A DNA stretch of 48,966 nt, taken from positions 1 to 48,966 of the forward strand of contig JAOPVE010000544.1 in NCBI GenBank assembly GCA_025963185.1. Direction: 5' to 3'. This DNA is from Actinomycetes bacterium. GTDB taxonomy: Bacteria; Actinomycetota; Actinomycetes; Mycobacteriales; Cryptosporangiaceae. Position 1 is the stretch's first letter; each line of letters opens with the position of its first letter. The notes beneath the pieces are model-generated. The model saw nothing but the letters and a program-made list of their open reading frames with translations, did not search any database and had not been told where the DNA came from. Positions 15,757 through 31,917 of this stretch are shown here, one piece after another. The position numbers were made by a program, and so were the translations under genes.

Positions 15757-15765
15757 GGCGGTGGT

Positions 15766-16545
15766 TCAGCGGGCGGGGGCGGGCTTGCGCTTGGGCTTGG
15801 CCGGGGGCGTCCTGGGCTGGTGGTTGTGCGGCTGCTGGTTGTGGGGCTGCGGGGTTTTGGCCTGCTCGTTCGTGGGGTCCGCGGGTGCCTTCGGTGCGGG
15901 CACGGCGGGGCGGCGGCGGGTGATCGCCAGCAGCACGCCGGCGGCGGCGAGTGCCAGCAGGGCGGCCACGGCGAGCACCAGGGCGAGGGCCGCCCGGGAG
16001 CGGGCCAGGGAGTCGAGGCCGGCCTTGCCCGCGGATCCGCTGAGTGGTGGCGCGGCGGCGACCTGTCCCCCCGCCGGTGCCGCCGGAGTGCCCGAGGTGG
16101 TGACCGTGAGGACCGGAGCAGGCGTGTCGGATCCTGGCGCGCCGGTCCACGACTCGGACTCGCGCTGGTACCGCTGGACGGCCTTGAACGCGAGCGAGGT
16201 GGCCGCCGCCGGGGTCCGGCCACGCAGCGCGAACGTGCCGAACGTCTTCGGCGGGATCGCCCCGCCAGTCCAGTGGACCGCCCGCGCGGTGCCGTCCGGG
16301 TTGGCGTCCACCGTGGTCTTCCAGCCCGGCAACTGCTCGGCGTAGCCCAGCACGAACCCGGACGGCAGCGTCACGTCGAGGCCGATCGTGTCCTGGTCGG
16401 CGCGCTCGTTGGGCACGGTCAGCGTGTACGTGGCGTACTGCTTGACCGCCGCGGTCGCCGGGCTGATCTCGACGTGCGCCGACGCGGGGACGGCCGGCAG
16501 CAGCACGGCGCCGGCGGCGAGGGCGAGAACGGTGATCCTGCGCAT
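15766..16545 (-). CDS. YcnI-like (DUF1775) copper-associated membrane-anchored protein
   Basis: 259 aa from an ATG with AGGAGG upstream. The signal peptide ends PASA, so the mature N-terminus is HVEISPATA; the N-terminal His is the copper ligand in studied YcnI proteins. The domain continues with TVPNERADQDTIGLDVTLP, PGWKTTVD and VHWTGGAIPP. A linker then leads to one transmembrane helix (about residues 195-216) and a cytoplasmic tail rich in Asn/Gln/His and Lys/Pro (QPHNQQPHNHQP). It is the last gene of the copC-copD operon and probably buffers or delivers copper at the membrane surface. The His-containing cytoplasmic tail is unusual. Confidence 0.9.
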   Translation of the reverse strand: MRRITVLALAAGAVLLPAVPASAHVEISPATAAVKQYATYTLTVPNERADQDTIGLDVTLPSGFVLGYAEQLPGWKTTVDANPDGTARAVHWTGGAIPPKTFGTFALRGRTPAAATSLAFKAVQRYQRESESWTGAPGSDTPAPVLTVTTSGTPAAPAGGQVAAAPPLSGSAGKAGLDSLARSRAALALVLAVAALLALAAAGVLLAITRRRPAVPAPKAPADPTNEQAKTPQPHNQQPHNHQPRTPPAKPKRKPAPAR

Positions 16546-16568
16546 GGGGTGCTCCTCCTGAGGGGCGA

Positions 16569-18320
16569 TCACTGCGGAACGGTGACGGGCACCGGGATCA
16601 CCACGGGCGATCCGAGCCGGTTGAACGTCGTGGTCAGCTGGTACTTGCCGGGGTCCACGAGCAGCCGCCCGGTGGTCCAGCGGCCCTCGCCGGAGATCAG
16701 CAGCGGGACGGTCCTGGCGACGCCGTCCGGGCCGCGCAGGCTCGCCGAGGCGGCCGGGGCGCTCGCCGGAGTGGCCTCGGTGAACAGCGCGATGGTGAAC
16801 ACGGTCGCCGCGTCGGCGCCCTCGCCCACCCGCTCGGTCTGCACGTCGGCCTCGAAACCCACCGATTCGGCGCGCGCGGTGGTGATCCGGGCCGCCGATC
16901 CGCCGCCCGCCCCGCCACCGGGCGCCACCGAGGGGTCCGGGGGGGCGGTCGCCGACATCAGCGCGGCAACGGCGACAAGCCCCAAAGCCAACCCAAGCTC
17001 GATGCGGATCGCCGAGCGCAGCTCGTCCGCGGCCGCGATCCGCCTGGTCAGCGCGGCGACCCGGCCGGCCAGCATCGGCACGAAGGTCAGGGCGCTGGCC
17101 GCCGCGAACAACAGCACCGTGGCGAACAGGGCCAGCTTCACGGTCAGTTCGATGCCCCAGGACGAGCCGCCGAAGTCGCGGATCTCGTCGATCCGGAGCA
17201 GGGTCGCGTACCCGCCCGTGGTGAGCAGGACCAGCATCGCGAGCTGGGCGACGATCGAGAACCTCGCCGAGAGCTGACCCGCCAGATCCCCGACGGCGGC
17301 CTTGTCCCGGCCGCCGAGTTCGCGCGCGGCGGGCAGCCCGGCCAGGGCGAGCCCGAGCAGGCCACCGGCCCACAGCGCGGCGGCGGCGAGGTGCAGCGCG
17401 TCGAACCCGATCGCGACCACCGAGTCGCTGGCGGCGGCGGCCGCGTGGCTGGACAGGGAGAACGTTCCCAGGGCGAGGGTGGCGGCGGCGAGCGCCGGGC
17501 CGATCCCCCGCTTGACCGCGAGCGCCAGCGCGGCCGCGAGCGCGATCAGGACGAGCCGGGCGAGCAGCAGCTCGCCGGTCCGGCTCACGGCCAGGAACTG
17601 CGGGACCAGGGTGACGGCCCTGGTCAGGGGGGCGGCGGCCGACTGGGCCACGGTGTCGACGGCGATCGCGAGGGTGCCCACGATCGCTGCCGCTGCGGAT
17701 CCGGCGACTGGCCTGCGGATCCGGCGGGCGAGCAGCGGACCGATCCGCGCCTCGGGATCCCGCCGCAACCGGACCATGACCAGCGGAAATGCCAGCAGGC
17801 CCAGGAGGGCGAGCGCGCCGCTCACGGCGACCGCCCGGCCGGTGGCCCCGAGCACGGACGGCCCGCTCGGCGCGGCGGCCTGCGTGCTGGTCAGCGGGGC
17901 CGAGGCCGACTTGTTGGCGAATCGGAACTCACCGGACACCGCATGGCCGTCGATCGAGATCACGTGCCAGCGGACCGCGTAGGTCCCCGGCAGGAGCCCC
18001 CTCGGCAGCGGCGCGGTGATCGTGTCCGCGGCGGACCGGTCCCGCTGGGCCGCCGTGGCGATCGGCTTGCCGTCCGGCCCGAGCACCCGGATCGCGTCCG
18101 CGGTCACCTCGACCGGCTCGGAGAACTGCAACCGGACGGTCCCCGGCGCCGACGGCGTGACCGTCCCGGCGGCGGGAGTGGTCGTCAGCAGCGCCGCGTG
18201 TGCGGACGCGGGAGCGGCGGGCGCGAGCAGGGCCAGCGCGGCGACCGCGAGTACGGCGAGCAGCCGCCCGGCCATCCGGGGCGCGCGTGTGGTGGTGACG
18301 TGGAGTTTCGGCACACCCAC
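16569..18320 (-). CDS. CopC-CopD fusion (YcnJ-like) copper import/resistance protein
   Basis: About 583 aa. I chose the GTG at 18320 because GGAGG lies 5 nt upstream; an ATG at 18275 would still keep the signal peptide (LLAVLAVAALALLAPAAPASA). The mature CopC domain starts HAALLTTTPAAG with N-terminal His and has SIDGHAVSGEFRF near its end. CopD follows with about eight membrane helices, including YATLLRIDEIRDFGGSSWG. The last 110 residues form an extra beta-rich extracytoplasmic domain (FEADVQTERV ... GEGRWTTGRLLVDPGKYQL), like YtkA/FixH. It lies in an operon with YcnI-like and FixH-like genes. Family known to handle periplasmic or surface copper; direction of transport not shown. Confidence 0.92.
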   Translation of the reverse strand: MGVPKLHVTTTRAPRMAGRLLAVLAVAALALLAPAAPASAHAALLTTTPAAGTVTPSAPGTVRLQFSEPVEVTADAIRVLGPDGKPIATAAQRDRSAADTITAPLPRGLLPGTYAVRWHVISIDGHAVSGEFRFANKSASAPLTSTQAAAPSGPSVLGATGRAVAVSGALALLGLLAFPLVMVRLRRDPEARIGPLLARRIRRPVAGSAAAAIVGTLAIAVDTVAQSAAAPLTRAVTLVPQFLAVSRTGELLLARLVLIALAAALALAVKRGIGPALAAATLALGTFSLSSHAAAAASDSVVAIGFDALHLAAAALWAGGLLGLALAGLPAARELGGRDKAAVGDLAGQLSARFSIVAQLAMLVLLTTGGYATLLRIDEIRDFGGSSWGIELTVKLALFATVLLFAAASALTFVPMLAGRVAALTRRIAAADELRSAIRIELGLALGLVAVAALMSATAPPDPSVAPGGGAGGGSAARITTARAESVGFEADVQTERVGEGADAATVFTIALFTEATPASAPAASASLRGPDGVARTVPLLISGEGRWTTGRLLVDPGKYQLTTTFNRLGSPVVIPVPVTVPQ

Positions 18321-18356
18321 CAGAGCCTCCGAACTGCCCCCTGATCCCCCGCCAAA

Positions 18357-18414
18357 CCGCGAAGTGTGTCGCGCCGGGCCGGTCGGGACCGGCGTAACGG
18401 CACGCACTTCGCGG
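18357..18414. repeat. Intergenic palindrome, family A variant (copy 6)
   Basis: Arms CCGCGAAGTG / CACTTCGCGG with the usual inner GGCCGGTCGGGACCGGC. The right arm reads AACGGCACGCACTTC, so it belongs to the GTGCCGT sub-type with the copy at 40.8 kb. It follows the FixH-like stop by 13 bp, inside the presumed operon. Confidence 0.8.
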
Positions 18415-18426
18415 ACGGACGGGCGG

Positions 18427-18894
18427 TCAGGCGGCGGCGGGGGTGCGGCGGCGGGTCACGGTGAGGGCCGCGGCGCCGATCAGGGCCAGGACCGCCAGAC
18501 CGCCGGACAAGGGCAGCCACGGGATCGGAGACGACGGCGCGGGCACGGTCACCGTCGCCCGGCCGGACCCCTTCGACGCCCCGGACGCCCGGACCGTGAG
18601 CTCCCACCGCCCGGCGGGCAGCACCGCGCGCCCCGAGAACACCCCGGGCTGCCCCGCCTTCGCCATCGGGATCGTCACCGAGCGCGACCCGGACCGGGCC
18701 GTGGCGCTGATCGACGAGGTGCCGTTCGGATCCCCATCGAGGTAGCTGATCACCGCACGGACCTCGGTCGCCCCACCCCTGAGCTGGGCCGACGCGTCGA
18801 CGAGCGACACCGGGCCGTGCGCCTGGGCGGGCGCCCCCAGGACGGCGAGCGCGGCGGCGAACAGCACAAACAGTGAGGCGAGGCGAAGAGGCAT
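18427..18894 (-). CDS. FixH/YtkA-like secreted membrane-anchored protein
   Basis: 155 aa from ATG; an upstream in-frame TTG at 18915 is possible. Signal peptide (LASLFVLFAAALAVLGAPAQA), mature start HGPVSLVDASA, then one immunoglobulin-like beta domain (VRAVISYLDGDPNG ... GVFSGRAVLPAGRWELTVRA). This matches the YtkA/FixH type and resembles the C-terminal domain of the CopC-CopD fusion next door. A C-terminal helix (LSGGLAVLALIGAAALTV) anchors it before RRRTPAAA. It starts 34 bp after ccmD ends, which links the ccm and copper genes in one transcript. Confidence 0.8.
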   Translation of the reverse strand: MPLRLASLFVLFAAALAVLGAPAQAHGPVSLVDASAQLRGGATEVRAVISYLDGDPNGTSSISATARSGSRSVTIPMAKAGQPGVFSGRAVLPAGRWELTVRASGASKGSGRATVTVPAPSSPIPWLPLSGGLAVLALIGAAALTVTRRRTPAAA

Positions 18895-18928
18895 ACCGGC
18901 AGGATCCGCCGTCAAGCTCTGGAAAACC

Positions 18929-19057
18929 TCACGGCTCGTCGGCGGACGCGGACCGCTTGCGCGCCTTCCCGGCCCGCCGCTGCATGCGCAGGGCCATCCC
19001 GGTGAGGACCGCGAACACGAACACGTACCCGGCGATCATGTAGGCGGCATCACGCAC
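18929..19057 (-). CDS. ccmD: CcmD-like small heme-exporter subunit
   Basis: 42 aa from a GTG that overlaps the end of ccmC by 8 bp. The product VRDAAYMIAGYVFVFAVLT continues GMALRMQRR and a Lys/Arg-rich cytoplasmic tail: a single helix followed by basic residues, as in CcmD (typically 40-70 aa with a start like RxAxYV and a helix). It is too short to be found by usual ORF cut-offs. Position directly after ccmC is the standard ccmABCD order. In studied systems CcmD helps release heme-loaded CcmE; no ccmE is visible here. Confidence 0.75.
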   Translation of the reverse strand: MRDAAYMIAGYVFVFAVLTGMALRMQRRAGKARKRSASADEP

Positions 19058-19790
19058 GCGCGCCCACCCCCGGACGGGCCCGCCCTGGCACCACCCGCGG
19101 CGCCGGCCGGTGCCGGACGCTGGCCCAGGCGTCCCGGCGGGCGCGTTCTTCGAGGTTCCCGAGCTGGACCCGGGCGCCGGTGAGATGCAGGAAGCCGACG
19201 GCGAAGGCGGCCGTGCCGAGCACGAGGCAGGCGATCGCGGCGGCGGTCGGCGCGGGCCGGGTGAGCTGGGCTTCGAGGGTGACCGGGCGCCAGGCGGCGA
19301 TCGACGCGTAGACCCCGGCGACGGCCGGGAAGGCGGCGAGCCCGGCCACGGCCGCCCAGCGGGCGGTCCGGTCGGGATTGTGCTGCAACCGCCGGATCGC
19401 CAGGTAGCCCCCGTACACCGCGGCGAGCACGGCGATGGTCCCCGCGAGCGGGTCGGAGGTCCACCAGCGGTGCTCGGCCGCCTGGCTCCAGAGCGCGCCG
19501 ACGAGGGCCGCGAGCAGGGCGAACGCGAATCCGGTCTCGGCCGCGGCGGCGGCGAGCCGGTCGGCGCTCGCCGATCCGGTGCGCAGGTGGGCGACGCTGG
19601 CGATCAGCACGACGGCCGATCCGGCGAACGCGACGACCGCGAGCGGGGCCTGGAGGTAGCTGAGCCGCTCGACCGGATCCCCGGCGGGCGCGATGAGTAC
19701 CGAGGTCAGGGTGCTCGCCGCGAGGGCCGCGACCGTGGCCCGGCCGAGCACCCGCTTGCCGGTGAGCGGCGCGGGACGGGCTCTGCGCAT
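19050..19790 (-). CDS. ccmC: CcmC-like heme exporter/handling protein
   Basis: 246 aa, six predicted helices. Between two of them lies GALWSQAAEHRWWTSDPL, matching the Trp-rich WWD heme-handling motif of CcmC/CcsA proteins in shortened form. Conserved His candidates flank it (HLRTGSAS, HRWW, HLTGARV). The start lies 1 nt after the ccmB stop. The role in known systems is to present heme on the outer face of the membrane. The WWD is weaker than in proteobacterial CcmC, so substrate handling could differ. Confidence 0.82.
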   Translation of the reverse strand: MRRARPAPLTGKRVLGRATVAALAASTLTSVLIAPAGDPVERLSYLQAPLAVVAFAGSAVVLIASVAHLRTGSASADRLAAAAAETGFAFALLAALVGALWSQAAEHRWWTSDPLAGTIAVLAAVYGGYLAIRRLQHNPDRTARWAAVAGLAAFPAVAGVYASIAAWRPVTLEAQLTRPAPTAAAIACLVLGTAAFAVGFLHLTGARVQLGNLEERARRDAWASVRHRPAPRVVPGRARPGVGARA

Positions 19791-19791
19791 G

Positions 19792-20433
19792 TCAGTCCTC
19801 CACGACGTGCCGGGCGGCGAGCGCCCCGACGGCGAGCACCCCGGCGTCGAACAGCAGGATCAGCGGCAGCCAGAGCCCGGCGTGGCCCTCGCCGGCCTTG
19901 ATCGCGAACACCGGCACGGGAGCGGCGGCCGGGAGCATGAGCAGCGGCAGGGTGGCTCCCCGGGCGTGCGCCGACTCGGTCATCAGCCCGAACAGCGCCC
20001 CGACAGCGGCGAGCCCCACCGTCCCGAGGATCGCGGCCGTGATCCCGGCAACGGACGGCGGCCCGGCGAACACGGCGGCGGCCACCAGCAGCACGGCCTG
20101 CACCACCAGCAGTTCGGCGGCGAGCGCGAGCACCTTGCCGAGATAGATGGCGGATCGCCGGACGGGCGCGAGCAGCAGCCCCTCCAGCGCCCCGTCCTCG
20201 CTCTCGGCGTCGTGGGCGCGCTTGAGGGCGAGGACCGTGGCGAAGACGACGGTGATCCACCCCAGCGCCGGGACGGTCTGCGCGGTGCGGGCCGGATCCG
20301 GGGCGGCGACCACGGCGAACGCCACGATCAGGGCGCCGGCCAGCGGGAGGACGGACCCGGCGATCCGGTGGCCACGGGCCTCGATCCGCAGGTCCTTGGC
20401 GGCGACCGCGGTGGCCTCGGTGAACAGGGTCAC
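19792..20433 (-). CDS. ccmB: CcmB-like ABC-transporter membrane subunit
   Basis: 213 aa from a GTG overlapping the ccmA stop (GTGA); family members are about 220 aa. It begins EATAVAAKDLRIEARG and has six helices, including IVAFAVVAAPDP and LGWITVVFATVLALKRAH. The sequence RAHDAESEDGALEGLLLAPV is characteristic of CcmB (compare the E-x-G-x-L-E-x-L-x-x-SP element). It would form the channel with CcmA. Confidence 0.87.
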   Translation of the reverse strand: MTLFTEATAVAAKDLRIEARGHRIAGSVLPLAGALIVAFAVVAAPDPARTAQTVPALGWITVVFATVLALKRAHDAESEDGALEGLLLAPVRRSAIYLGKVLALAAELLVVQAVLLVAAAVFAGPPSVAGITAAILGTVGLAAVGALFGLMTESAHARGATLPLLMLPAAAPVPVFAIKAGEGHAGLWLPLILLFDAGVLAVGALAARHVVED

Positions 20434-21176
20434 GGGCGGCCGGTCCCGTAGAGGGGCTGGCGGCGGTCCGCGGTGAGCTCGCCGTTGAACAGGGTGAGCA
20501 CGCGGGTGGTCCGGAACGTGGGCGGCCGGAAACCGGTGGTGGCGAGCACCGCGCCCCCGTGGGCGGCGACCTCGGTGACCAGGGATTCGACGATCGCCGC
20601 CGCGTCGGGGTCGAGCCCGGCGCACGGCTCGTCGAGCAGCAGCAGCTCGGGCCGGCGCAGGTAGCACCGGGCGAGCGCGAGGCGCTGGCGCATCCCCGGG
20701 GAGAACCCCCGCACCGGATCGCTGTGCAGGCAGAGCAGTCCCACCCGGTCGAGGGCGGCGGCTACCCCGGCCCGCGGGACCCCGTTCATCCGGCACCAGA
20801 AGCGCAGGTTCTCGGCGGCCGTGAGGTCGAGGTAGCAGCGGGTGGTATCGCCGATGAGCTCGGTGTCCAGCCGGATCGCGGCCCGCCCCTCGGGGGTGCC
20901 GAGGTCGTGCCCGAGGATCCAGCCGCCGCCGCTGGTGGGGGTGAGGGCGGTGGCGATGACCCGGAGCAGGGTGGACTTGCCGGATCCGTTCGGCCCCCGC
21001 ACGAGCAGCGCCTCGCCGCGCTCGACGGACAGGGTGATGTCGCTGATCCCGGGGACGTGGCCGTAGTGCCGGGAGATCCGGTCGAGGTACACCGCGGCGC
21101 GCCCCGGTGCGGGCGCGGGGGGCGGCGGGGTGGTGCGGGGCTCGGCAGCCCGGCGGGTCATCGTCCAGCTACGCAT
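20430..21176 (-). CDS. ccmA: CcmA-like ABC-transporter ATPase
   Basis: 248 aa from the ATG at 21176 with AGGG close by; further ATGs at 21194 and 21161 are possible. Walker A GPNGSGKST, a Q-loop region with LDTELIGDTTRCYLDLT, signature FSPGMRQRLALAR, Walker B ELLLLDEPCAGLDPDA and an H-loop position occupied by T/G (GAVLATTGF). First gene of ccmABCD. The missing switch His is worth noting: CcmA proteins commonly have His there. Confidence 0.88.
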   Translation of the reverse strand: MRSWTMTRRAAEPRTTPPPPAPAPGRAAVYLDRISRHYGHVPGISDITLSVERGEALLVRGPNGSGKSTLLRVIATALTPTSGGGWILGHDLGTPEGRAAIRLDTELIGDTTRCYLDLTAAENLRFWCRMNGVPRAGVAAALDRVGLLCLHSDPVRGFSPGMRQRLALARCYLRRPELLLLDEPCAGLDPDAAAIVESLVTEVAAHGGAVLATTGFRPPTFRTTRVLTLFNGELTADRRQPLYGTGRP

Positions 21177-21236
21177 AAGCCCTGATTGTGACATTACGGC
21201 CACCGCGCCGCCGCCAGGCGCGCCCGCACCCCCCAA

Positions 21237-21284
21237 AAGTGCGGTAACCCCGGCCGGTCAGAACCGGCCGGGGTTACCGCACTT
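21237..21284. repeat. Intergenic palindrome, family A copy 4 (perfect hairpin)
   Basis: Perfect 22-bp arms, AAGTGCGGTAACCCCGGCCG plus GT and complement, with a CAGA tetraloop. It begins 30 bp after the multicopper oxidase stop and precedes ccmA, so it probably ends the oxidase transcript. It is the most regular copy in the window. Confidence 0.92.
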
Positions 21285-21314
21285 CGCCAAGGGTGGCCCG
21301 CGGGTGGGATCAGG

Positions 21315-24300
21315 TCAGGACAGCACCGCCAGGCCGTCCAGATCGATCCGCGTTCCCGTGGCCTGGGGCCTCTTGGTACCCAGGACCGTGACCTTCACGG
21401 TGTGGGATCCCGACGCCAGCCCGGTACCGAGCACCCGGGCGCCCTTCGCCGACGCGCTGGCGTAGAAGTCCTGGTCGGACTCGATGCCGTCGACGGCGAT
21501 CCGTGCGATGCCCTGGCCCATCCCCGTCGCCGAGAGCAGCGCGAGGCTGGACCCGGACGGCACGGAGAACGAGGCCGTGGCCGCCGACGAGGCGAAGACC
21601 GCCCTGCCGCCGGAGTAACTGCTGGCCGCCGCGTTGGACCAGGTCCCGGTGCGGATCGCCGCCGTTTCCTGCAGCAGCGACACCGTCCGGGCCACGCCCG
21701 TGACCTCCAGCGTGCTGTTGCCCGCCTTGTCCTTGGCCTTGACCGAGAACGCGTACGTGTGGCCGGGGGCCAGCGACAGCGTCGTCGACGTGGCCGTCGC
21801 GGACGGCAGGGTCAGCGTCGACCAGGTGCCGTCCGTGGACTGCCGGATCGTGTACCCGGCGATCCCGGACCGGTCACTCGCCGACCAGGACAGGCTGACC
21901 GGCACCCCGGTCGCCCCCGACCCGCCCGGCTTGAGCACCGGGACCGGCACCGTGAACAGCTGCGGAGCGGTCTTGTCCGTTCCGGTACCGACGGGGAGCG
22001 TGTACTGCTGCTCACCGATCGCCGAGGCGTTGCCGGCCACGTCGACCGCCTGGTAGCGCAACCGCACCGAGGCCGTGACCGGGATCGGCGAGGTGTACGG
22101 CACCGCGTCCGCCGGGGCGGATCCGTCGAGGCTGTAGTACACCGGTCCCGGCTCGGACGAGGTGAGCGTGACCAGCCCGTTCGCCATCGTGGCCGACACC
22201 GTCGGTGCCGTGGTGTCCACGGTGAACGTCCGGGTGGCCGCGGCCCCGTACACCCGGTCCGGGCTGAGCGGCCGGACCTTGAACGTGTACGTCCCGTCCG
22301 CCTCGCCCTGGTAGCCCATCGGGGACCGGCACGGTACGAACTGGTCCGCCCCGGTGGAGAGCGAGCAGGCGAACGCCGTGTCCGGGGTGTCGGACGTGAA
22401 CGAGAACGACATGTCCTTGCTGGTGGTCAGGCCCGACGGTCCCGAGGTGACGGTCGCCACGGGGACGACCGGCGCGGGCAGGGCCAGGCACTGGAGCTGC
22501 ATGCCGGCCGGAGGACAGGCCGCGGGCTTCGGAAGCACCCGCTGCAGGCCCCACATGCCGGCCTCGGTGAACGGCCTGCGCATGTCGCCGTAGTAGTAGT
22601 CGCCCGGCTGGTGGCCGATGCCACCTGCTCCGCCGAGCACGTGCGCGGTGACCATCTCCCACGGGCCGACGCCCTTGGCCTCCACCGACTGCCCGTCCGG
22701 CGTCAGCGCGTCCTGGAGCCAGGACAGGCCGCCGAGGCTGAACACGTGCGTCTGCTCGCTGCCCGGCGCGACCAATGCGTGCACCGTCAGCGGATCCCCC
22801 GCGTACGACTGCATGATCGGCGTTGCCGGGTCACCGAACGCCGCGGACGAGAACGCGTCGGCACGGTTCAGATCCCTGGGCGCGTTCTGGTAGTTGAGCA
22901 GCGCGTTCTCGGGCTTGTCGAGCACCGTGCGGTACGGCATGAAGCTCGACCCGATCTGCGGATCGCTGTCCGCCATGATCACCGAGAAGTCCCGGTAGTC
23001 GCCCTTGCCCGGCACGTGGACCACCACGGCACGGCCCAGGTTCGTCTCGGCACCCGACAGCGGATCGGTGAACGTCGACCCGCGGGGGGCCACCGTGAAG
23101 GATCCGTACAGGCCCTGCTTGTCGAGCCCGTTCCCGGCGAGGTCCGTGATGGATCCGCCGCCGATCCGGGCGTCGTCCGCCGAGTAGGTGTAGGTGCGCG
23201 AGGCACCGTCCGGGATCGTCGTGTCGGGGTTCCAGCCCACCGCGGATCCGCTGGACGCGGAGTCGGTGGTCAGGCCGGACAGGTGGAACGAGACCCTGCC
23301 CTGCTTCGCCGAGTTCGTCACCTTGACCTGCACACAGTCACCCACGGCCACGTGCAGGATCAGCGGATCCGGCCGGGTGGTTCCGGCGATCACCCCCGCG
23401 GCTATCGAACTGGGCACGAACGCCAGCTTCGCTCCGGCAAGCTGGCTCTTCACCGGGACGGCCGTCACGTCGAACGCACGGACGTTGGCTCCGGGCGCGC
23501 ACGGGCTCGTCGCCGTCCCCGCCACGGGTGGCCGCCCGCCGGTCTGGGTGGGCAGCGCCGCCACGGTCCCCGGCGTGGTCGCGCCAGGTAGTGGCCGCAG
23601 GTAGTTCGGATCGCCCGGATCGCTGGTCACCTTGCCGGGCAGCACCCGGATCAGTCCCCAGGCACCGTCGGCTGTTCGCCGGTTGATGCCGTTGAAGTAC
23701 AGGTAGTCACCTGGTGTGCCGTTCTTGCCACCGGCCCCACCCCCGAGGATCACCGAGAACTTCTCCGAGATCCCGTAGTGGATCGTGTCGGTGGTGCTCG
23801 CCTTCGCGGTCGAGTCCGGGTTCGTATACCGGTTCTCCAGCGAGAAGTTGTGCCCGTCGACGTGCAGGGTGTCGACCGTCGCGCCGACGTTGACGGTCCG
23901 GATCACCACCGGATCCTTCGGATAGGCCCGGGGCAGCGGGGTGATCGGATCCCCGTACTTGTACGAGCTGTACTTCAGCGACGAGTCGCCGGTGCCGTCG
24001 GTTCTGTCGGCGAGCGGGTTGGCCCGCATGTTCAGCGTCGAGTCCAGGGTGTTCCCGAAGCCCTTGTCGATGGTCAGCAGCGCGAGTTCGCGGTAGCTGC
24101 CCTTGACTCCGGCGGCCGGGGCCAGCGCGCTGGTGGTGTGGATGTCCACGATGGGTCCCGAGTCGACCTCGGCACCGCTGCGCGGGTCGTGGTAGGTCGA
24201 TCCCCTGGGCTCGATGATGAGCTGGCTGACCAGTCCGTGGGCCCAGGTGTGGATCCCGTCGACGTGGTCGTGCCAGAAGATGTTGTCCAGGTCGACGTCC

Positions 24301-27149
24301 GGGTACCAGCGGCCCTGGACGAACTCGACGCCCGCCCACTGCCCGGCCGCGTGGTCGCCCTCAAGCGGGCGGTCCAGCGTGATGGTGTTCGCGGCCTGGT
24401 CGACCGCGGTGATCTGCCGGACCTCGGGGCCCTGGCCGGACGCCGAGGCGTTCAGCGTCCCCGTGGCCGCGGGTCCGTCGGTGCCGAGCCCGACGCCCAG
24501 CCAGACGCCCTTCTGGAACTTCGCGACGCTGGTCAGGTGCAGCACCGTCGCGCCCTTGGCCACGGAGTCCGCGAGCTGCGGGTCCTCGGCCTTGTACGGC
24601 CGGACGGCCTGCTCGTAGGACATGCCGGTGATCACGCCATCGGAGGCCTGCGTGTCGAACTGCACATGGTGAATATGCATGTTGACCTGCGAGAACCCGT
24701 CCGCCGCGTTCTTGTCTGTCAGCTCGCTGGTGAGCGTGGTCGCCACGCAGTCACCGACGTTCGCGCGGATCGCCAGCGGCTGCATCGGCTTGGCGCCCGA
24801 GAGCACCGCGTCCTTGTCGTGGGCGAGCACGAACACCTTGCCCACCGGGTCGTAGTCCTTCGCCGAGACCTGCATGCCGTGCTCGATCGCGACGATGTTG
24901 AACCGGCGGATTCCCTCCGGCGAACCGTCGGAGCGCTTGGCCGGGCAGATCGCGTCGGTGCGGCCCGCGTACGGATCGACAGTGCCGGCCGTCTTCGGTG
25001 CGGTCGCGCCCAGCTCGCCGAGGTACGGAGCACCGGAGTGACCGGACGGCGAGAACGGCGGCCGGATCCCCAGGTGCGGGCGCATCAGCGGATACGCGGG
25101 ACGCCCGTTCAACGGGTTGAACAGCAGCACCGGACGGTCGCCGACGAACCGGTCGACCGGCAGCGCCGTCGCGTGCCCGGGCACGGTGTTGTAGTAGTCG
25201 ACCCAGCTGGTCTTGTCCTCGGGCTCACCGAGGTACTGCGCCGGGTTGGCCGGGTTGGTTCCCCAGTTCCACACCGTGGCGTCCTCGGCGTTCTTGCGCA
25301 CCCCCGGGCTCGGGAGCTGCGGGCGGATCCAGTCGTCGAGGTTCGCCGCCGTGATCGTCTGGCCGTTGATCGTCTTGCCGATCAGCGCGGTGGACTCGAC
25401 CGGGGCGGGCGGGTCGGTCCGGTCCGCCAGCGGGGCGAACTCGGGCTGCCGGGTGTCGTAGACCCGCCAGAACGACCACATGCCCGCGACGTAGTGCTCG
25501 GCGATGTGGCAGTGGAACAGGAAATCGCCCGCACCCTGCTGGACGCCGCCGGCGCCACCCTCGATCTCCAGGTTGTACGACTCGCCCGGGCCGAACGACT
25601 GCGAGTCCAGGCGCTCGGAGTCCGAGGCCTCCACCGGGTACTTGTTCAGGCCGGTGTGGGCGTAGTCGTAGGAGGAGTCCGCGACGGGGTTGAAGCGCCA
25701 GCGGATCCCGCCACCGTGCATGTGGAAGACGTGGAACATCTCGCTGCCAGCGTGCAGGATCCGGAACTTCGTCGGGTCACCGAGGTAGCCGCGCGGCATC
25801 GGGGTGGCCGGGTCGCCGAAGGTGTACGAGCCGTAGGCGTGCGCCTCCTGGTCGGGGGCTGGTTCGAGCCGGTCGTAGAAGGGCTCGGTCCGGTAGCTGA
25901 TCGCCCGGGTGCCCGGCCGGTACGCGTCGGTGTGCGGGTCAACGAAGGGCAGCGGCTGGTTGTTCTTGTTCAGCACCGCGTCCTTCTCGTTCTCGTTGCC
26001 GATCTCGTGGTAGAGCTGCACGTTCTCGCGGAACGACGGCCGCCCGTAGGGCTTGATGGTCATCTCCCAGCCCGACGGGGCCGTGACGGTGTGGGCCTCG
26101 TCCACCCCGTTGGGGTCCACGTAGGTCGAGCCGGGGGGCTCCACCACGAGGGATCCGAACAGGCCGTGGTTGACGAAGTCGCGGAAGCCCGCGCCCGGGT
26201 GCAGGTAGTGGGCGCCTTCGAGCGAGGCGTCCTCGGGCACGTAGTACGTGTAGGTCTTGGTCTCGCCCGCGGTGGGGTTCGAGGCCAGGTTGCGGCCGAC
26301 CGCGTCACCGGAGGATCCGGACAGCATGACGAGCCCGTCGATGTGCATCCCGAAGTCGCCGCCGGTGGCGTTGTTCGTGTACGTGATCGTGACGCAGTCA
26401 CCCTCGTTCGCGCGGATCACCAGCGGCTGGATCGCGTCGTTGCGCAGCCCGATCTGCACCTTCTGGGTCGCCTCCTGGTCCCGGATCGCGCCGATCTGGC
26501 TGGTCAGCGCGTACATCCGGCCCTTGGGATCGTGGTCGCCGAAGCGGTTCAGCGGAATGTTCACGTTGATCGCCTGGACGTCGTACGTGCGCGTCGGCGT
26601 CCCGTCCGGGCACGGGTTGTCCGCGGTCGGGGTGACGGTCGCGGCCGTGGCGGGCTGGCCGGCGGCGAGCGCCATCGCGCCGCCCGCGAGCGCCAGGACC
26701 GCGAACTGCGCGACGAGCCGGCGGCCGGTCCGGCGCAGGGTGGCCGCGGACGGCACCGGCACCGCGAACAGCAGGACGTGCGCGAGCGCGCTCGTCACCA
26801 GCGCGACCGGGAGAGCCAGCGCGAGATCCCGCGGCAGCTGCGCCGCGATCACCACGCCGGATCCGCCGAGAAGCTGCTGCGCGAGCGCGCCAGCGGCGAC
26901 GCCCGCCGCCGCCGCGATGCCCCCCGTGAGCACCTTCACGACCTCAGGCGCGCCCTTGACGAGCTGCCTCGACAGCCACAGCCCCACCACTACCGGTGGC
27001 AGGGCCAGCGCGGCCGCGAGCAGCCAGCTCGCGGTGAAACCGTCGGGCAGCGCGCCCGCGCGGCTGGCGAGCCAGGTCAGCCAGGCCGCCGGGACCGCCG
27101 CCAAGGGCACGGCCAGCGCGCCTAACCTAGACGTCGTGGTGGGATGCAT
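21315..27149 (-). CDS. Giant multicopper oxidase with polytopic membrane N-terminus
   Basis: About 1,944 aa; start MHPTTTSRLG has GGAG 8 nt upstream (another ATG at 27167). Residues 1-165 hold about five helices, ending in a cleavable-looking AAGQPATAA. Six cupredoxin-like domains follow in three pairs. Copper ligands: GMHIDG (about 270), HYLH (313), HVFHMHGG (471), HCHIAEHYVAGM (545; Cys and Met fit a type 1 site), MHIHHVQF (825) and FWHDHVDG (960). The third pair has lost them (VSFHLSGLT, THVFSLGG). Beyond about 1,550 come beta domains, including a chitobiase-like YYSLDGSAP and Fn3-like repeats. It resembles MnxG/MofA-type manganese oxidases, but substrate is not proven. It follows the small His-tailed membrane gene by 47 bp. 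Confidence 0.9.
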   Translation of the reverse strand: MHPTTTSRLGALAVPLAAVPAAWLTWLASRAGALPDGFTASWLLAAALALPPVVVGLWLSRQLVKGAPEVVKVLTGGIAAAAGVAAGALAQQLLGGSGVVIAAQLPRDLALALPVALVTSALAHVLLFAVPVPSAATLRRTGRRLVAQFAVLALAGGAMALAAGQPATAATVTPTADNPCPDGTPTRTYDVQAINVNIPLNRFGDHDPKGRMYALTSQIGAIRDQEATQKVQIGLRNDAIQPLVIRANEGDCVTITYTNNATGGDFGMHIDGLVMLSGSSGDAVGRNLASNPTAGETKTYTYYVPEDASLEGAHYLHPGAGFRDFVNHGLFGSLVVEPPGSTYVDPNGVDEAHTVTAPSGWEMTIKPYGRPSFRENVQLYHEIGNENEKDAVLNKNNQPLPFVDPHTDAYRPGTRAISYRTEPFYDRLEPAPDQEAHAYGSYTFGDPATPMPRGYLGDPTKFRILHAGSEMFHVFHMHGGGIRWRFNPVADSSYDYAHTGLNKYPVEASDSERLDSQSFGPGESYNLEIEGGAGGVQQGAGDFLFHCHIAEHYVAGMWSFWRVYDTRQPEFAPLADRTDPPAPVESTALIGKTINGQTITAANLDDWIRPQLPSPGVRKNAEDATVWNWGTNPANPAQYLGEPEDKTSWVDYYNTVPGHATALPVDRFVGDRPVLLFNPLNGRPAYPLMRPHLGIRPPFSPSGHSGAPYLGELGATAPKTAGTVDPYAGRTDAICPAKRSDGSPEGIRRFNIVAIEHGMQVSAKDYDPVGKVFVLAHDKDAVLSGAKPMQPLAIRANVGDCVATTLTSELTDKNAADGFSQVNMHIHHVQFDTQASDGVITGMSYEQAVRPYKAEDPQLADSVAKGATVLHLTSVAKFQKGVWLGVGLGTDGPAATGTLNASASGQGPEVRQITAVDQAANTITLDRPLEGDHAAGQWAGVEFVQGRWYPDVDLDNIFWHDHVDGIHTWAHGLVSQLIIEPRGSTYHDPRSGAEVDSGPIVDIHTTSALAPAAGVKGSYRELALLTIDKGFGNTLDSTLNMRANPLADRTDGTGDSSLKYSSYKYGDPITPLPRAYPKDPVVIRTVNVGATVDTLHVDGHNFSLENRYTNPDSTAKASTTDTIHYGISEKFSVILGGGAGGKNGTPGDYLYFNGINRRTADGAWGLIRVLPGKVTSDPGDPNYLRPLPGATTPGTVAALPTQTGGRPPVAGTATSPCAPGANVRAFDVTAVPVKSQLAGAKLAFVPSSIAAGVIAGTTRPDPLILHVAVGDCVQVKVTNSAKQGRVSFHLSGLTTDSASSGSAVGWNPDTTIPDGASRTYTYSADDARIGGGSITDLAGNGLDKQGLYGSFTVAPRGSTFTDPLSGAETNLGRAVVVHVPGKGDYRDFSVIMADSDPQIGSSFMPYRTVLDKPENALLNYQNAPRDLNRADAFSSAAFGDPATPIMQSYAGDPLTVHALVAPGSEQTHVFSLGGLSWLQDALTPDGQSVEAKGVGPWEMVTAHVLGGAGGIGHQPGDYYYGDMRRPFTEAGMWGLQRVLPKPAACPPAGMQLQCLALPAPVVPVATVTSGPSGLTTSKDMSFSFTSDTPDTAFACSLSTGADQFVPCRSPMGYQGEADGTYTFKVRPLSPDRVYGAAATRTFTVDTTAPTVSATMANGLVTLTSSEPGPVYYSLDGSAPADAVPYTSPIPVTASVRLRYQAVDVAGNASAIGEQQYTLPVGTGTDKTAPQLFTVPVPVLKPGGSGATGVPVSLSWSASDRSGIAGYTIRQSTDGTWSTLTLPSATATSTTLSLAPGHTYAFSVKAKDKAGNSTLEVTGVARTVSLLQETAAIRTGTWSNAAASSYSGGRAVFASSAATASFSVPSGSSLALLSATGMGQGIARIAVDGIESDQDFYASASAKGARVLGTGLASGSHTVKVTVLGTKRPQATGTRIDLDGLAVLS

Positions 27150-27196
27150 ACCGGTACTCCGTCTCATCGCTTCTGCTGTTGTGGCGTCTGCTGTGA

Positions 27197-27805
27197 TTAG
27201 TGGCTGTGGCCGGTGTCGGGCTGGGCGCCGAACGCGGCGTTCCCCAGCTCGATGACGATGGGCTTCGCAGATCCGGGATCGGTGAACTCCAGCTGCAGCC
27301 GCGCGCCGCTCCGGGGGACCACGAACGACAGGTGCCCCTGGATCCCCGCGTGCGGCAGGACCCGCGTGTTGGGCAGGTCCCCACTCGACGCCGCCTGGGC
27401 CGTCGTCTTCCCGCTCGCCGTCACCAGCAGCCGGAACTGCTTGGTGGTGAAGTCGATCGGCTTGTTCAGGTCGTTGGTCAGCGACACGGCGGTCTGGATC
27501 TGGGCGTGGTCCTCGTCGACCAGTCCGGACACCCCGTGGGTCGCGCCGGACAGGGCCCGGTGCGTGAGCCCGTCGACCGAGCGGACGAACTCCACGCCGA
27601 CGGTCCCGAAGCTCGTAGGCACCGGATCGTTGATGTGGTGTACCCCGCTGGCCTGCCCCGCGCCGGGACCGACGATCGTCAGCGCGAGCGCCGATCCGTA
27701 CGCCACCCCGACTACGGCGATGGCCATGGCGATCAGCGTGACGAGCAGGATCCGCAGGTTGGGAACGGATCCAGTGCGGCGCGGTGCGGCTGTGACGGCA
27801 GCCAT
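27197..27805 (-). CDS. Membrane-anchored extracytoplasmic protein with His tail
   Basis: 202 aa from an ATG with GAGGAGG upstream. One N-terminal helix (LRILLVTLIAMAIAVVGVAY) anchors a beta-rich outer domain (VSLTNDLNKPIDFTTKQFRLLV ... SFVVPRSGARLQLEF, split here by intervening residues), like the DUF4352/telomeric-repeat-like immunoglobulin folds of secreted actinobacterial proteins. His residues occur in VHHINDP, PHAGIQGH and the very C-terminus DTGHSH. It is the first gene of the oxidase transcript. I infer a metal-binding or assembly partner of the giant oxidase; the family itself I cannot name. Confidence 0.75.
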   Translation of the reverse strand: MAAVTAAPRRTGSVPNLRILLVTLIAMAIAVVGVAYGSALALTIVGPGAGQASGVHHINDPVPTSFGTVGVEFVRSVDGLTHRALSGATHGVSGLVDEDHAQIQTAVSLTNDLNKPIDFTTKQFRLLVTASGKTTAQAASSGDLPNTRVLPHAGIQGHLSFVVPRSGARLQLEFTDPGSAKPIVIELGNAAFGAQPDTGHSH

Positions 27806-27869
27806 CAGGTCCTCCTCGGGTGTTCTGACATTCACCGAGGACGGTCCCTCACGGACCTCTGGAAAAACC

Positions 27870-27885
27870 CTCAGCCAACTCCCAG
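27870..27885 (+). promoter_or_regulatory. Two 11-bp-phased NNCAG repeats upstream of the oxidase operon
   Basis: CTCAG-N6-CCCAG on the plus strand, 65-80 bp upstream of the His-tail gene start; CTGGA lies one further period upstream (27859). Orientation is opposite to that of the other sites relative to the gene. Confidence 0.35.
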
Positions 27886-27916
27886 CCCGCTGCCCGGCCC
27901 CGCGTGGGCGCCCATG

Positions 27917-27970
27917 GCGAAGTGCGGTAACGGGGACCGGTCGGGGCCGGTCGCAGTTACCGCACTTCGC
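27917..27970. repeat. Intergenic palindrome, family A copy 5
   Basis: Perfect 15-bp arms GCGAAGTGCGGTAAC and complement around a centre with two GACCGG/GGCCGG units. It starts 22 bp after the NarL-type regulator stop and precedes the oxidase operon promoter. Confidence 0.9.
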
Positions 27971-27992
27971 GAGAGTGGGACGGGGGGCAGGG

Positions 27993-28631
27993 TCAGGCGG
28001 GGCGGGCGGCCAGGCCGAGGCGGTGGGCGTGCAGGGCGGCCGCGGTCCGGTTGCCGACCGCGAGCGCCTGGTAGATGTGCGTGAGGTGGACCTTGACCGT
28101 GGCCTCGGAGATCCCCAGCGTGGTGGCGATCGACCGGTTCGACATGCCGGTGGCGAGGAGCGCGAGGACCTCCCGCTCGCGGTCCGTGAGGCCCTGCGGC
28201 GAGGATCCGGGGCCACCGGTGCGGGCCCGGAGGAGCACGCTCGCGGCGATGGCGGCCAGCGGCGACTCGCCCCGGAACGCGGCCCGGACCCCGCGCACGA
28301 GCTCGTCCGGATCGACGTCCTTGAGCAGGTACCCCTTCGCCCCGGCGTCGACCATGGCGACGATCCGCTCCCGGTCGGAGAACGAGGTCAGCCCGACCAC
28401 CCGGATCCCGGGGGCGGCCGCGACGATCCGGCGGGTGGCCTCGATGCCGTCGACTCCGGGCATCGACAGGTCCATGAGGACGACGTCGGGGCGCAGCGCG
28501 AGGGCCAGCTCGACGGCCTGTTCCCCGTCGGTGGCCTCGCCGACCACGTCGATATCGGCAACCGTGGCGAGCAGCTGGCGCAGCCCGGCGCGCATGAGCA
28601 CGTGATCGTCGGCCAGCAGCAGCCGGATCAT
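27993..28631 (-). CDS. NarL/LuxR-family response regulator
   Basis: 212 aa. Receiver RLLLADDHVLMRAGLRQLL, acceptor Asp in VVLMDLSMPG (about 54), Thr/Ser in VGLTSFSD and Lys in GYLLKDVDPDELV. The C-terminal LuxR helix-turn-helix reads LTDREREVLALLATG and SNRSIATTLGISEATVKVHL in the expected order. Its ATG overlaps the kinase stop (ATGA). Third gene of the SARP-kinase-regulator operon, directly upstream of the oxidase operon. Confidence 0.94.
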   Translation of the reverse strand: MIRLLLADDHVLMRAGLRQLLATVADIDVVGEATDGEQAVELALALRPDVVLMDLSMPGVDGIEATRRIVAAAPGIRVVGLTSFSDRERIVAMVDAGAKGYLLKDVDPDELVRGVRAAFRGESPLAAIAASVLLRARTGGPGSSPQGLTDREREVLALLATGMSNRSIATTLGISEATVKVHLTHIYQALAVGNRTAAALHAHRLGLAARPA

Positions 28632-30010
28632 CGCAGCGGCAGTTCGAACATGAAGGTGACTCCTTCTCCGGGTGCGGACGTGAGCTTGAGCTGGCCGTTC
28701 GCCTCGCTGGCCAGGTCGGACAACATGCGGATGCCGAAGTGCGGGCGGTCGTCGCCGGGCGGGACCGCGGGGTCGAAGCCGATCCCGTCGTCGGTGACAG
28801 TCAGTACGGCCCGCCGGGCGGTGGTGTCGAGGGTGACCCGCACGTGGGACGCCCCGGCGTGCACGGCCACGTTCCGCAGCGCCTCCTGCGCGGCCCGGAA
28901 CAGCGCGTCCCCGACCTCTGGACGCAGCGGCCGTGGGGACGGCATCTCCAGTGTGGTGGCGATCCCGGCCTCGGCGAGGGGTTCGAGCAGGCCGCCGAGT
29001 GCGGCGCGCAGCCCGGCCTCGTCGCGGTTGGGCGGGTAGATCTCGGAGATCAGGGTGCGCAGGCCCATGACTCCGGACCGGGTTGCGGCGGCCGCGGAGT
29101 CGATCCGGTCGGTTAGCTCGTGGGGGTCTGCGCCGCCGATCCGGTCGGTGGCCCGTGCTTCCGGGGATCCGGCGAACGCGGGCTGGAGTTCCTTGCTCAG
29201 CGCGGCCAGGCTGAACGACACCCCGGCGAGCTGCTGGACCACGCCGTCGTGCAGGTCGCGGGCGATCCGGCGGCGCTCGGCATCGGAGGCGTCCATCGCC
29301 CGCCACTGCAGCACCTCGCGCTCGCGCTGGCCCTGCCGCAGCCGCCGCACGAGCCGCCAGGCCAGCGGGAGCTGAAGCGCCTCCAGCGCGAGCAGGGCGA
29401 GTACGAACGCGGGCGCCACGGCACCGCCGATGCTGTCGGCGCGCGCGGTGATCGAGTCGAAGCGCAGGTAGATCTCCCACAGCAGCGGCCTGCCGCTGGG
29501 GGTGAGGACCCGCTCGTAGACCTGCAGCAGCTGGCCGTAGGAGTGTTCGAGCTTGTTCTCGTCGGCGGCGAGATCGGACAGGTTGGCCGTGGCGTTGCCG
29601 GTCGCCAGCACTTCCCGGTCGTCCGCTTCGAGCGCGAACCTCTCGCCGATGAGCCGGGGATCGTCCGAGTACACGATGGTGCCGTCAGCGGTCCACAGCT
29701 TGACCCGGACCTGCCGGTCGCTGCTCAGGTGCGTGCGGACGATCCGGTCGAACTCGGCGACCGCGGCCGGATCCCCGGCCGCGAGCGCGTCGGTGATCGC
29801 GGGCTGGACGACGTGCCTGGTCTGCAGGTCCGCGATCTCGCGGGCCTGCAGCACGGCCTCCTTGGTGGCGGCACTGCGCAGCGCGGCCATGCCGATGAGC
29901 GCGAGCACGACCAGCGCGGCGATCCCGGCGACGGCGAACTGCCCGATCGCCACGGCCCCGGACATCTCCCGCCCGGGACCATGCCGACGGGACCGGGAGC
30001 GCAGCCTCAC
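28628..30010 (-). CDS. NarL-type sensor histidine kinase (HisKA_3)
   Basis: 460 aa from a GTG that overlaps the SARP stop (GTGA); an ATG at 29965 lies directly after GGGAG and is less likely. TM1 is about residues 22-43, then a periplasmic sensor of about 140 residues with PAS/Cache-like features (VKLWTADGTIVYSDDPRLIGE), and TM2 about 190-212. The dimerisation box is RRRIARDLHDGVVQQLAG (His about 252), followed by HATPase with FRAAQEALRNVAVHAGA, DDGIGFDP and GIRMLSDLA. The sensor type suggests a small extracellular ligand or redox cue. Unit with the downstream regulator and the upstream SARP. Confidence 0.93.
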   Translation of the reverse strand: MRLRSRSRRHGPGREMSGAVAIGQFAVAGIAALVVLALIGMAALRSAATKEAVLQAREIADLQTRHVVQPAITDALAAGDPAAVAEFDRIVRTHLSSDRQVRVKLWTADGTIVYSDDPRLIGERFALEADDREVLATGNATANLSDLAADENKLEHSYGQLLQVYERVLTPSGRPLLWEIYLRFDSITARADSIGGAVAPAFVLALLALEALQLPLAWRLVRRLRQGQREREVLQWRAMDASDAERRRIARDLHDGVVQQLAGVSFSLAALSKELQPAFAGSPEARATDRIGGADPHELTDRIDSAAAATRSGVMGLRTLISEIYPPNRDEAGLRAALGGLLEPLAEAGIATTLEMPSPRPLRPEVGDALFRAAQEALRNVAVHAGASHVRVTLDTTARRAVLTVTDDGIGFDPAVPPGDDRPHFGIRMLSDLASEANGQLKLTSAPGEGVTFMFELPLR

Positions 30011-31917
30011 GCCGTGCCCGCGGCCAGGTAGAGCGGCTGGCGGATCGAGGCGGGGTGGCTGGCGATCCGGTTCCGGCGGTCCCCGGCCTGGTCCCGGCGC
30101 TCCCGGACCGGCGGGAACGCCGCGACCTCGGACCGGCGATCCGCTGTGGACTCGGCAGAGCGGACCAGCCCGCCGAGCACCCGCTGGCGGGCCGCCGACA
30201 TGGTGCCGGCCAGGGTGTCGCGCACGACCGGGTACCGGAACTCGAAGCCGCGCCCGGCGGCCCGCAGCATCCCGGAGTCGGACAGCTCCTCCAGCCGGTC
30301 GACGGCGGGCAGCGGCTGGATCCCGAGCACCCTGGCCAGCTCCTCGGGACCGCAGGGCTGCGGGAGCCAGGCGGCCACGGCGGCGGTCCGGAACAGGTCC
30401 GGGCCGAGCTCGGCGGATCGGGTGAGCACGAGTTCGCGCAGGTTGCTGGGCTCGGCGAGCCATCCGGCGACGTAGAGGGGCAGGCCGCCGGTGTGCTCGG
30501 CGAGGTCCGCTCCGTCGATGCCGCCGGGTCCGGCGAGGCCGTCGAGGTCGGCGGCGGTGAGCGGCCACAGGGTGAGGCGGGCGGCGGGTTCGAGCCGGGC
30601 CAGCGCGCGGTGGCCGCCGGTGCGGCAGGCGAAGATCAGCGCGCCGGACGAGGGCCCGTCGAGGCGCCGGGCGGCCGAGGCGAGGATCGCCACGCTCTCC
30701 GGATCCGCCCAGTGCGCGTCGTCGACGAGCAGCACGACGGGCCGCTGCCGGAGCAGGCTGCACAGGGCTTCGAGGACGATCGCCCGCGCGCCACCGGCCG
30801 AGGGATCCGCGGTGGTGAACGTGTCGAGTACCAGTTCGGTGACCGACGGATCCGACGACAGCGCCCGGACCACGTCCCCCAGCAGCGCGCCACGCAGGTC
30901 GCTCTCGAACTGCGCGCAGCGGATCCGCACGACGTGCCGTCCGGCGATGGTGCCCGCCAGTTCGTCGAGGAGCCGAGTCTTGCCGGCCCCGGTCTCGCCG
31001 TCGACGATCGCTACGGCCAGGCCGGTCGCCGCCGCGGCGCCCGAGGGGGCGGCCGTACCCGAGCACAGCGCGGTGAGCTGGGCCAGCTCGCCGGACCGCC
31101 CCACCAGCGGCAGGGATCCGGACGCCGGAGCCGCGGTCACGACCACGGGCGCCACGGCATCGCCGGGACCGGGCAGCAGCGCGCTCAGCGGGGCCCTGGC
31201 GAGGATCGCCTCGTGTAACGCGGACGTCTCGCGCATCGGCTCCAGGCCGGCCTCGTCCCGCAGGATCCGCTGGCAGGTGCGGTAGGTCAGCAGGGCCTCC
31301 TGCTGGTTGCCCGCGCCGTAGTGGGCGGTCATCAGCAGGCGGTAGCCGTCCTCGGCGAGCGAGTCGGCGCGGACGGCCGTGGTCGCGTACTCGGTCGCCT
31401 TGGGCATGTTGCCCCCGGCGAGGGCGGCCTGGGCGGCGGCGATGACCAGCCGCTGGTAGCGCTGGCCGTAGTAGCCGCGGGCCTTCATCGCCCAGTCCGC
31501 GTAGGGCTCGTCCTCCAGCAGCTCGGCGCTGGCCAGGCCGATCGCCTGTTCGAGCTGCGGCAGGGTCGTCGCGCGGTCCGCGAGCTCGGTGAACGCGGTG
31601 ATGTCGAGCCACGCTCGCCCGTTGTCGATCCGGTAGCCGCCGTGACCGGTGACCAGCAGGGACTCCTGCGGCCGGCCACCGGGGTTGAGCCGCTTGCGCA
31701 CCAGCGAGACGTAGTGCTCCACGGTGCTCGCGAAGTTGACCGGCAGCTTCTCGCCCCACAACAGATCCGCGAGCTGGTCCTTCGCGACGAACCGGCCTTC
31801 CTGCAGCAGCAGGATCTCCAGCAGCTGCTTGGGCTTGCGGCCGCCGAAGTCGCGGCTACCCAGCGTGCGGGTGGCAGCCGTCGCCTGCAACGTGCCGAAC
31901 AGGGTGAAGCTAGTCAC
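30007..31917 (-). CDS. SARP/BTAD-AAA regulator (AfsR-like, lacking TPR tail)
   Basis: 636 aa from a GTG with GGAGG 8 nt upstream. An OmpR-like winged helix (GRKPKQLLEILLLQEG ... STVEHYVSLVRKRLNP) is followed by a bacterial transcriptional activation domain to about 245. A STAND/AAA ATPase then has Walker A VDGETGAGKTRLL (about 307) and Walker B VVLLVDDAHWAD (about 400). The protein ends about 100 residues after a winged-helix-like segment, without the long TPR region of AfsR. SARPs bind direct repeats and activate operons. It heads an operon with a two-component system, and an 11-bp-phased repeat lies 17-43 bp upstream of the start. I infer control of the adjacent copper/heme genes. Confidence 0.92.
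   Translation of the reverse strand: MTSFTLFGTLQATAATRTLGSRDFGGRKPKQLLEILLLQEGRFVAKDQLADLLWGEKLPVNFASTVEHYVSLVRKRLNPGGRPQESLLVTGHGGYRIDNGRAWLDITAFTELADRATTLPQLEQAIGLASAELLEDEPYADWAMKARGYYGQRYQRLVIAAAQAALAGGNMPKATEYATTAVRADSLAEDGYRLLMTAHYGAGNQQEALLTYRTCQRILRDEAGLEPMRETSALHEAILARAPLSALLPGPGDAVAPVVVTAAPASGSLPLVGRSGELAQLTALCSGTAAPSGAAAATGLAVAIVDGETGAGKTRLLDELAGTIAGRHVVRIRCAQFESDLRGALLGDVVRALSSDPSVTELVLDTFTTADPSAGGARAIVLEALCSLLRQRPVVLLVDDAHWADPESVAILASAARRLDGPSSGALIFACRTGGHRALARLEPAARLTLWPLTAADLDGLAGPGGIDGADLAEHTGGLPLYVAGWLAEPSNLRELVLTRSAELGPDLFRTAAVAAWLPQPCGPEELARVLGIQPLPAVDRLEELSDSGMLRAAGRGFEFRYPVVRDTLAGTMSAARQRVLGGLVRSAESTADRRSEVAAFPPVRERRDQAGDRRNRIASHPASIRQPLYLAAGTA

Follow-up and report, generated by a model that had tools for sequence, protein, structure and literature searches.

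The Mnx complex of marine Bacillus (MnxE3F3G; PDB 9bxa) contains a six-cupredoxin oxidase, MnxG, which needs the copper-binding proteins MnxE and MnxF, encoded upstream of it, for activity (PMC5622069). In Pseudomonas, giant Mn multicopper oxidases (MnxG and McoA) are under the two-component system MnxS1/S2-MnxR with sigma-54 control, and the genome also encodes MopA. MopA, a long peroxicin, represents the second class of Mn oxidases known from bacteria, and its plan combines a haem peroxidase with RTX repeats (PMC6247904); in one study, MopA of P. putida GB-1 was inactive or silent (PMC11930936). Two further kinds of cluster to which we compare the present locus are the ycnI-copC-copD copper-uptake clusters and the CcmABCDEFGH (system I) operon. 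The locus is an island of ~16 kb in the window, the whole stretch of 48,966 nucleotides that was analysed, which makes up an entire contig (G000:C74) of a 93% complete, 5.38-Mb genome. As judged from sequence comparisons, the island probably encodes a copper-dependent extracellular or cell-surface Mn(II) oxidase system, with a partner protein that we call HisTail, a copper supply and regulators. In the literature as represented mostly by titles and the first parts of abstracts, with few subscription papers, we found no description of an actinobacterial MnxG/MopA locus.

Layout and conservation of the island

The genes of the island, which the earlier note had described as lying on one strand, are indeed all present on the minus strand, between positions 15766 and 31917. 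The first gene in the direction of transcription (30007-31917) encodes a SARP-family regulator with an AAA_16 ATPase domain (Pfam BTAD 1.3e-16, AAA_16 2.5e-17), in which an N-terminal Trans_reg_C domain is present together with BTAD, as in SARP regulators. It is followed by genes for a sensor histidine kinase (28628-30010; HisKA_3 and HATPase_c) and a NarL/LuxR-type response regulator (27993-28631; Response_reg 3e-27, GerE 5e-19), and the kinase gene overlaps each of its neighbours by 4 bp. Downstream of these are the genes for HisTail (27197-27805), which has one transmembrane helix, a DUF4352-type Ig domain and a C-terminal TGHSH, and, after a gap of 29 bp, for a 1950-aa, six-domain multicopper oxidase (21315-27167; Pfam Cu-oxidase_3 and Cu-oxidase_2). 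The remainder consists of a ccm block, in which ccmABC overlap or nearly touch, a gene for a small secreted protein, and genes for a CopC-CopD fusion and a YcnI-like protein, the last two separated by 23 bp.

This gene neighbourhood is conserved in relatives. Three MAGs (L016, L018 and L030) have the SARP, kinase, response regulator, HisTail and oxidase genes in synteny with the window, and the oxidase gene is followed by the CopC-CopD and YcnI genes in L018 and L030, and by ccmABC in L016. In the oxidase tree these three, together with L017, are the closest relatives of the window. Nearly the same set is present on a Rubrobacter marinus plasmid (L065), where genes for a multicopper oxidase, a DUF4352 protein, a kinase, a response regulator, DUF1775, CopC and CopD occur together and the oxidase is much more distant. 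A plasmid of Streptomyces sp. NBC_00335 (L063) carries genes for a HisTail-like protein, a multicopper oxidase and CopC/D, with SARP and YcnI genes nearby, and a CopC gene lies close to the mnxG-like gene on a Priestia megaterium plasmid (L064). The three MAGs and the Rubrobacter plasmid support the island as a conserved unit. The MnxG-type loci of L063, L064 and L065 are all plasmid-borne, and CopC is nearby in all three.

Two copies of a 48-nt palindrome of the form AAGTGCGGTAAC-24 nt-GTTACCGCACTT are located in gaps of the island, between the response regulator and HisTail genes (27920-27967) and between the oxidase gene and ccmA (21237-21284). Further copies in the window are present at 5874-5921, 6466-6513 and 13639, and a degenerate one at 18354-18410, at the start of the CopC-CopD gene. 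The palindrome occurs in 135 exact copies genome-wide (a reversed control gave 0), which indicates that it is a REP-like repeat and no signal of the island, and rules it out as an island-specific regulatory site. It was not seen in the loci of the relatives. Because the palindromes are positioned between the response regulator and HisTail genes, between the oxidase and ccmA genes, and at the start of the CopC-CopD gene, the island may comprise several transcription units rather than one operon. A search for sigma-70 promoters returned none, and such a search is uninformative at this G+C content. We infer from gene order alone that the island is under common regulation.

The giant oxidase and its HisTail partner

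A sequence search of the PDB identified Bacillus MnxG (9bxa, E=1e-94) as the sole strong match of the oxidase. The matching stretches are collinear with positions 3-1203 of 9bxa_A, in order through all six cupredoxin regions. The giant oxidase pointed out earlier is an exported-type multicopper oxidase and a homologue of MnxG. The copper-ligand motifs FHVFHMHG, HCHIAEHYVAGM, MHIHHVQFD and WHDHVDGIH are present, and the ligand motifs of the type-1 and trinuclear sites (HVFHMHG, HCHxxxHxxxxM, HIHHVQFD and HDHV) are conserved in all homologues that extend over these positions; the His motifs of domains 4 to 6 vary among homologues. The counterpart motif in 9bxa reads HCHLYPAFGIGM, with Ala at the place of the second type-1 His, presumably an engineered change. 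An AF2 model of domains 1-4 reached a pLDDT of 62.6 and was set aside.

The window oxidase shares with the Mnx complex the six-cupredoxin build, the ligand motifs and the domains in which they occur, a gene for a small transmembrane or copper-binding partner just upstream and, as on the Priestia plasmid, a nearby CopC. It differs from it by an N-terminal membrane region, by C-terminal domains of the Fn3 type, and by its low identity (~30% to the Bacillus-type, mnxG-like protein of Priestia), which is too low to fix the substrate by sequence. With the NCBIfam equivalog for Pseudomonas-type MnxG (NF041487) the oxidase scored 118 bits, against a cut-off of 3100; the Priestia protein was likewise under this cut-off (333 bits). 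Because this equivalog was missed by such a wide margin, we use the term MnxG-type and not MnxG. The resemblance to the Pseudomonas system is that of a giant multicopper oxidase linked to two-component genes and accompanied in the genome by a MopA-like protein, whereas the oxidases belong to different subfamilies and the sigma-54 control of Pseudomonas has SARP and NarL-type genes as its counterpart in the window. The combination of SARP and NarL-type two-component genes also sets the island apart from the Mnx complex.

The next PDB matches of the oxidase are two-domain laccases, at about 2e-9. These, together with the origin of isolates from soil and the presence of a peroxidase gene beside the oxidase gene in relatives, would be in line with a laccase-like oxidase acting on phenols, lignin fragments or humic matter, the peroxidase providing a second such activity. 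The laccase matches are however ~85 orders of magnitude weaker in E-value than the match to MnxG and cover only one domain, and both the six-domain MnxG layout and the dedicated HisTail partner argue against a laccase. We consider this explanation distinctly improbable, and the lignin-like oxidation suggested in the earlier note found no specific support.

The oxidase locus is rare. Among 395 sampled Actinomycetota, three other genomes gave a full-length match of more than 1000 bits, and a scan of 84,980 species genomes yielded 36 oxidase loci, from Actinomycetota and Chloroflexota. Other Actinomycetota (G105, G111, G206, G238, G249, G269 and G289) have giant multicopper oxidases of 1500-2100 aa that form a second, distant group, with many weak matches per protein, and in the Chloroflexota loci L024, L036, L037 and L038 two giant oxidase genes lie close together.

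HisTail adjoins the oxidase in 33 of the 36 loci, usually directly upstream, and the three loci without it are contigs that start inside the oxidase gene. HisTail is a dedicated and conserved partner of the oxidase. Members of the family have one transmembrane helix and an Ig-type domain; their G-x-x-H motif is almost invariant, and most of them carry an HxH at the C-terminus. L023 contains two HisTail genes in tandem. The AF2 model of HisTail (pLDDT 84.6) was assigned by Foldseek, with modest TM-scores, to a fold of the DUF4352/YjhA/YcdA type, and the PDB profile matches were YcdA and YjhA. The window protein scored 20.0 bits against Pfam DUF4352 (gathering score 25.9), and 23 of 34 members matched this family at E<=1, the best at 1.8e-6. 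A profile search against the 95- and 107-aa proteins encoded at the MnxE and MnxF positions in Priestia detected no similarity. Together with the YcdA/YjhA matches this led us to reject HisTail as a homologue of MnxE or MnxF: the position that MnxE/MnxF hold beside MnxG is taken in the window by a dissimilar, DUF4352-type protein. By analogy of position, HisTail may nevertheless be the equivalent of the MnxE/MnxF subunit, and it is a candidate accessory subunit of MnxG-type enzymes outside Bacillus.

The MopA-type peroxidase companion

In 10 loci a gene for a protein of ~1700-2140 aa is located on the same strand upstream of the HisTail-oxidase pair. These loci are from Terrabacter, Terracoccus, Intrasporangium, an Intrasporangiaceae isolate, Phycicoccus, two Nocardioides, and MAGs of Nocardioidaceae, Thermoleophilia and Anaerolineales; in five of the ten, a divergent CopC-CopD gene lies between the peroxidase gene and the pair. 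In the two of the ten proteins analysed with Pfam, RTX repeats and Fn3 domains accompany an animal haem peroxidase domain. The peroxidases of the relatives and of the window genome share the peroxidase-RTX architecture of MopA, at ~1800-2140 aa; they differ from it in the added Fn3 domains of the locus proteins, and their Mn activity is putative.

In the window genome the peroxidase gene does not adjoin the oxidase gene but is present on a separate contig of 9.4 kb (G000:C233). Its 1953-aa frame matches An_peroxidase (3.7e-53) and HemolysinCabind (1.3e-19), and shares 61% identity with the Intrasporangium protein over 1809 aa. The neighbouring, divergent gene on this contig (L072, 454-3225) codes for a protein with a ricin-B-type lectin domain. 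Long peroxidase frames were found in 10 of 13 oxidase-bearing genomes versus 4 of 197 sampled Actinomycetota (Fisher p=7e-12), a comparison in which the 13 genomes are not independent, several having been picked after the adjacency was seen. Similar peroxidases occur in rhizobia, and these rhizobial relatives are not known to oxidize Mn.

The presence in one locus of two unrelated enzyme classes with Mn-oxidizing members is the strongest argument for Mn, although it is not proof, and the pairing suggests that both classes act in one pathway. The Mn oxidation guessed at in the earlier note is now much better founded, given the relationship to MnxG and the neighbouring peroxidase in relatives; Mn is still the putative substrate. 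The same evidence bears on the possibility of a ferroxidase or a general metal oxidase that acts on Fe(II) or Cu(I) and serves to detoxify metals or to handle iron. A link to iron exists for giant multicopper oxidases such as OmpB of Geobacter, and copper genes adjoin the oxidase gene here. Nevertheless, the closest structure is that of the Mn oxidase MnxG, and the second enzyme of the conserved locus is built like a Mn-oxidizing peroxidase, and we regard a ferroxidase or general metal oxidase as unlikely.

Copper genes, the ccm block and the proposed function

The CopC-CopD fusion (16569-18407; Pfam CopC 8e-24, CopD 6.5e-11), which has the same position in L018 and L030, is followed by the DUF1775/YcnI-like secreted protein (15766-16545; 1.8e-21), an arrangement resembling that of the ycnI-copC-copD copper-uptake clusters. 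The window set differs from these clusters in being linked to a giant oxidase and regulators. Upstream of the fusion, a small secreted protein (18427-18915) that had been labelled FixH-like gave no convincing match in Pfam or NCBIfam, and we assign it to no family. Cleavage of the predicted signals would leave His as the mature N-terminus of these three consecutive proteins (AQA-H in the small one, ASA-H in CopC and in YcnI); copper-binding CopC and YcnI start with His after signal cleavage. CopC-CopD genes are found near the oxidase gene in about a third of the loci, the background being four CopC genes across the 5.4 Mb of the genome. These copper-homeostasis genes might be taken to mean that the island confers copper resistance and that its oxidase detoxifies Cu(I) in the manner of CopA or CueO. 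We consider this very improbable: the oxidase scored 18.7 bits with the CopA-family NCBIfam model (cut-off 479) and has the six domains of the MnxG type as well as a dedicated partner, and no gene for a copper ATPase was detected in the island.

Between the oxidase gene and the gene for the small secreted protein, the window has genes in the ccmABCD order of the system I operon. They encode a ccmA-like ABC ATPase (20430-21236; ABC_tran 2e-26), whose true start is probably internal and which scored 121.4 bits with TIGR01189 (ccmA; cut-off 131.6), a ccmB-like permease of uncertain start (19792-20436; Pfam CcmB 1.3e-19), a CcmC-like protein just under the Pfam cut-off (19050-19790), and a putative CcmD-like short ORF (18929-19057), recognized by its position and sequence (AYMIAGYVFVFAVLTG). 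In the actinobacterial MAG L016, an apparently complete operon with a canonical CcmC directly follows the oxidase gene (14557-21100); it contains ccmABC, ccmE and ccmF, and then readable ccmG-, ccmH- and ccmI-like genes, those from E to I having been identified by reading of the sequence. Alignment with this CcmC, using the haem-binding residues established for the family, showed that both haem histidines are gone from the window protein, as is the WWD core: this protein has YLQAPLA for YVHVPAA, EHRWWTSDPLAG for WGAWWTWDPRLT and YASIAAWRPVTLE for HLSVVWWRGLHQ. The E to H genes of system I are missing from the window, and in the 93% complete source assembly we found no match for CcmE and no other Cytochrom_C_asm protein of the CcmF/CcsA type.

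On the basis of the CcmC alignment and these searches we rejected CcmABCD haem export for the window. ccmB is moreover missing or elsewhere in most of the oxidase-bearing relatives checked, and haem export by the window block, which the earlier note had assumed, is unlikely. A wider form of this idea, a module for haem export or cytochrome c maturation with copper respiration, would account for the ccmABCD genes and for the apparently complete operon at the same spot in one relative. No CxxCH protein was detected among the well-coded ORFs of the window (nor among those of the 23-kb L016 locus), and copper-dependent respiration gained no specific support; with the losses described above, this explanation is largely refuted for the window and hardly credible. 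The ccm block is an addition that varies between loci: one relative has it in apparently complete form, and the window in a reduced form that is best read as what is left of a cytochrome c maturation operon and that may have been repurposed.

For the Mn(II) oxidase system that we favour, the following scheme can be drawn. The type-1 copper of the MnxG-type oxidase would take electrons singly from Mn(II) and pass them to O2 at a trinuclear copper cluster to which domains 2 and 3 contribute their HxH motifs, and Mn(III/IV) oxide would be deposited outside the cell. HisTail, as an accessory subunit and functional counterpart of Bacillus MnxE/MnxF, would probably anchor the enzyme or deliver copper or Mn, while CopC-CopD and YcnI would provide copper for the exported oxidase. 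The SARP regulator and the kinase-regulator pair probably turn the locus on, and the MopA-type peroxidase would be the genomic companion of the oxidase. Mn(II) oxidation has been described for a Terrabacter isolate (PMC6396730); a Terrabacter genome carries the locus (L020), and its strain differs from that isolate.

We lean, somewhat more cautiously, towards a broader interpretation, in which the locus would be dedicated to Mn biomineralization in Actinomycetota and Chloroflexota and would join both evolutionarily unrelated classes of bacterial Mn oxidase with a new accessory subunit, HisTail, with a supply of copper and with control by SARP and two-component proteins; the peroxidase of the window lineage is encoded elsewhere, and a once complete ccm operon would have shrunk there to ccmABCD. 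The candidate genes identified in soil actinobacteria that are in culture (Terrabacter, Nocardioides, Intrasporangium, Terracoccus and Phycicoccus) give direct access to the questions why bacteria oxidize Mn and by which enzymes they do so outside Bacillus, Pseudomonas and the alphaproteobacteria.
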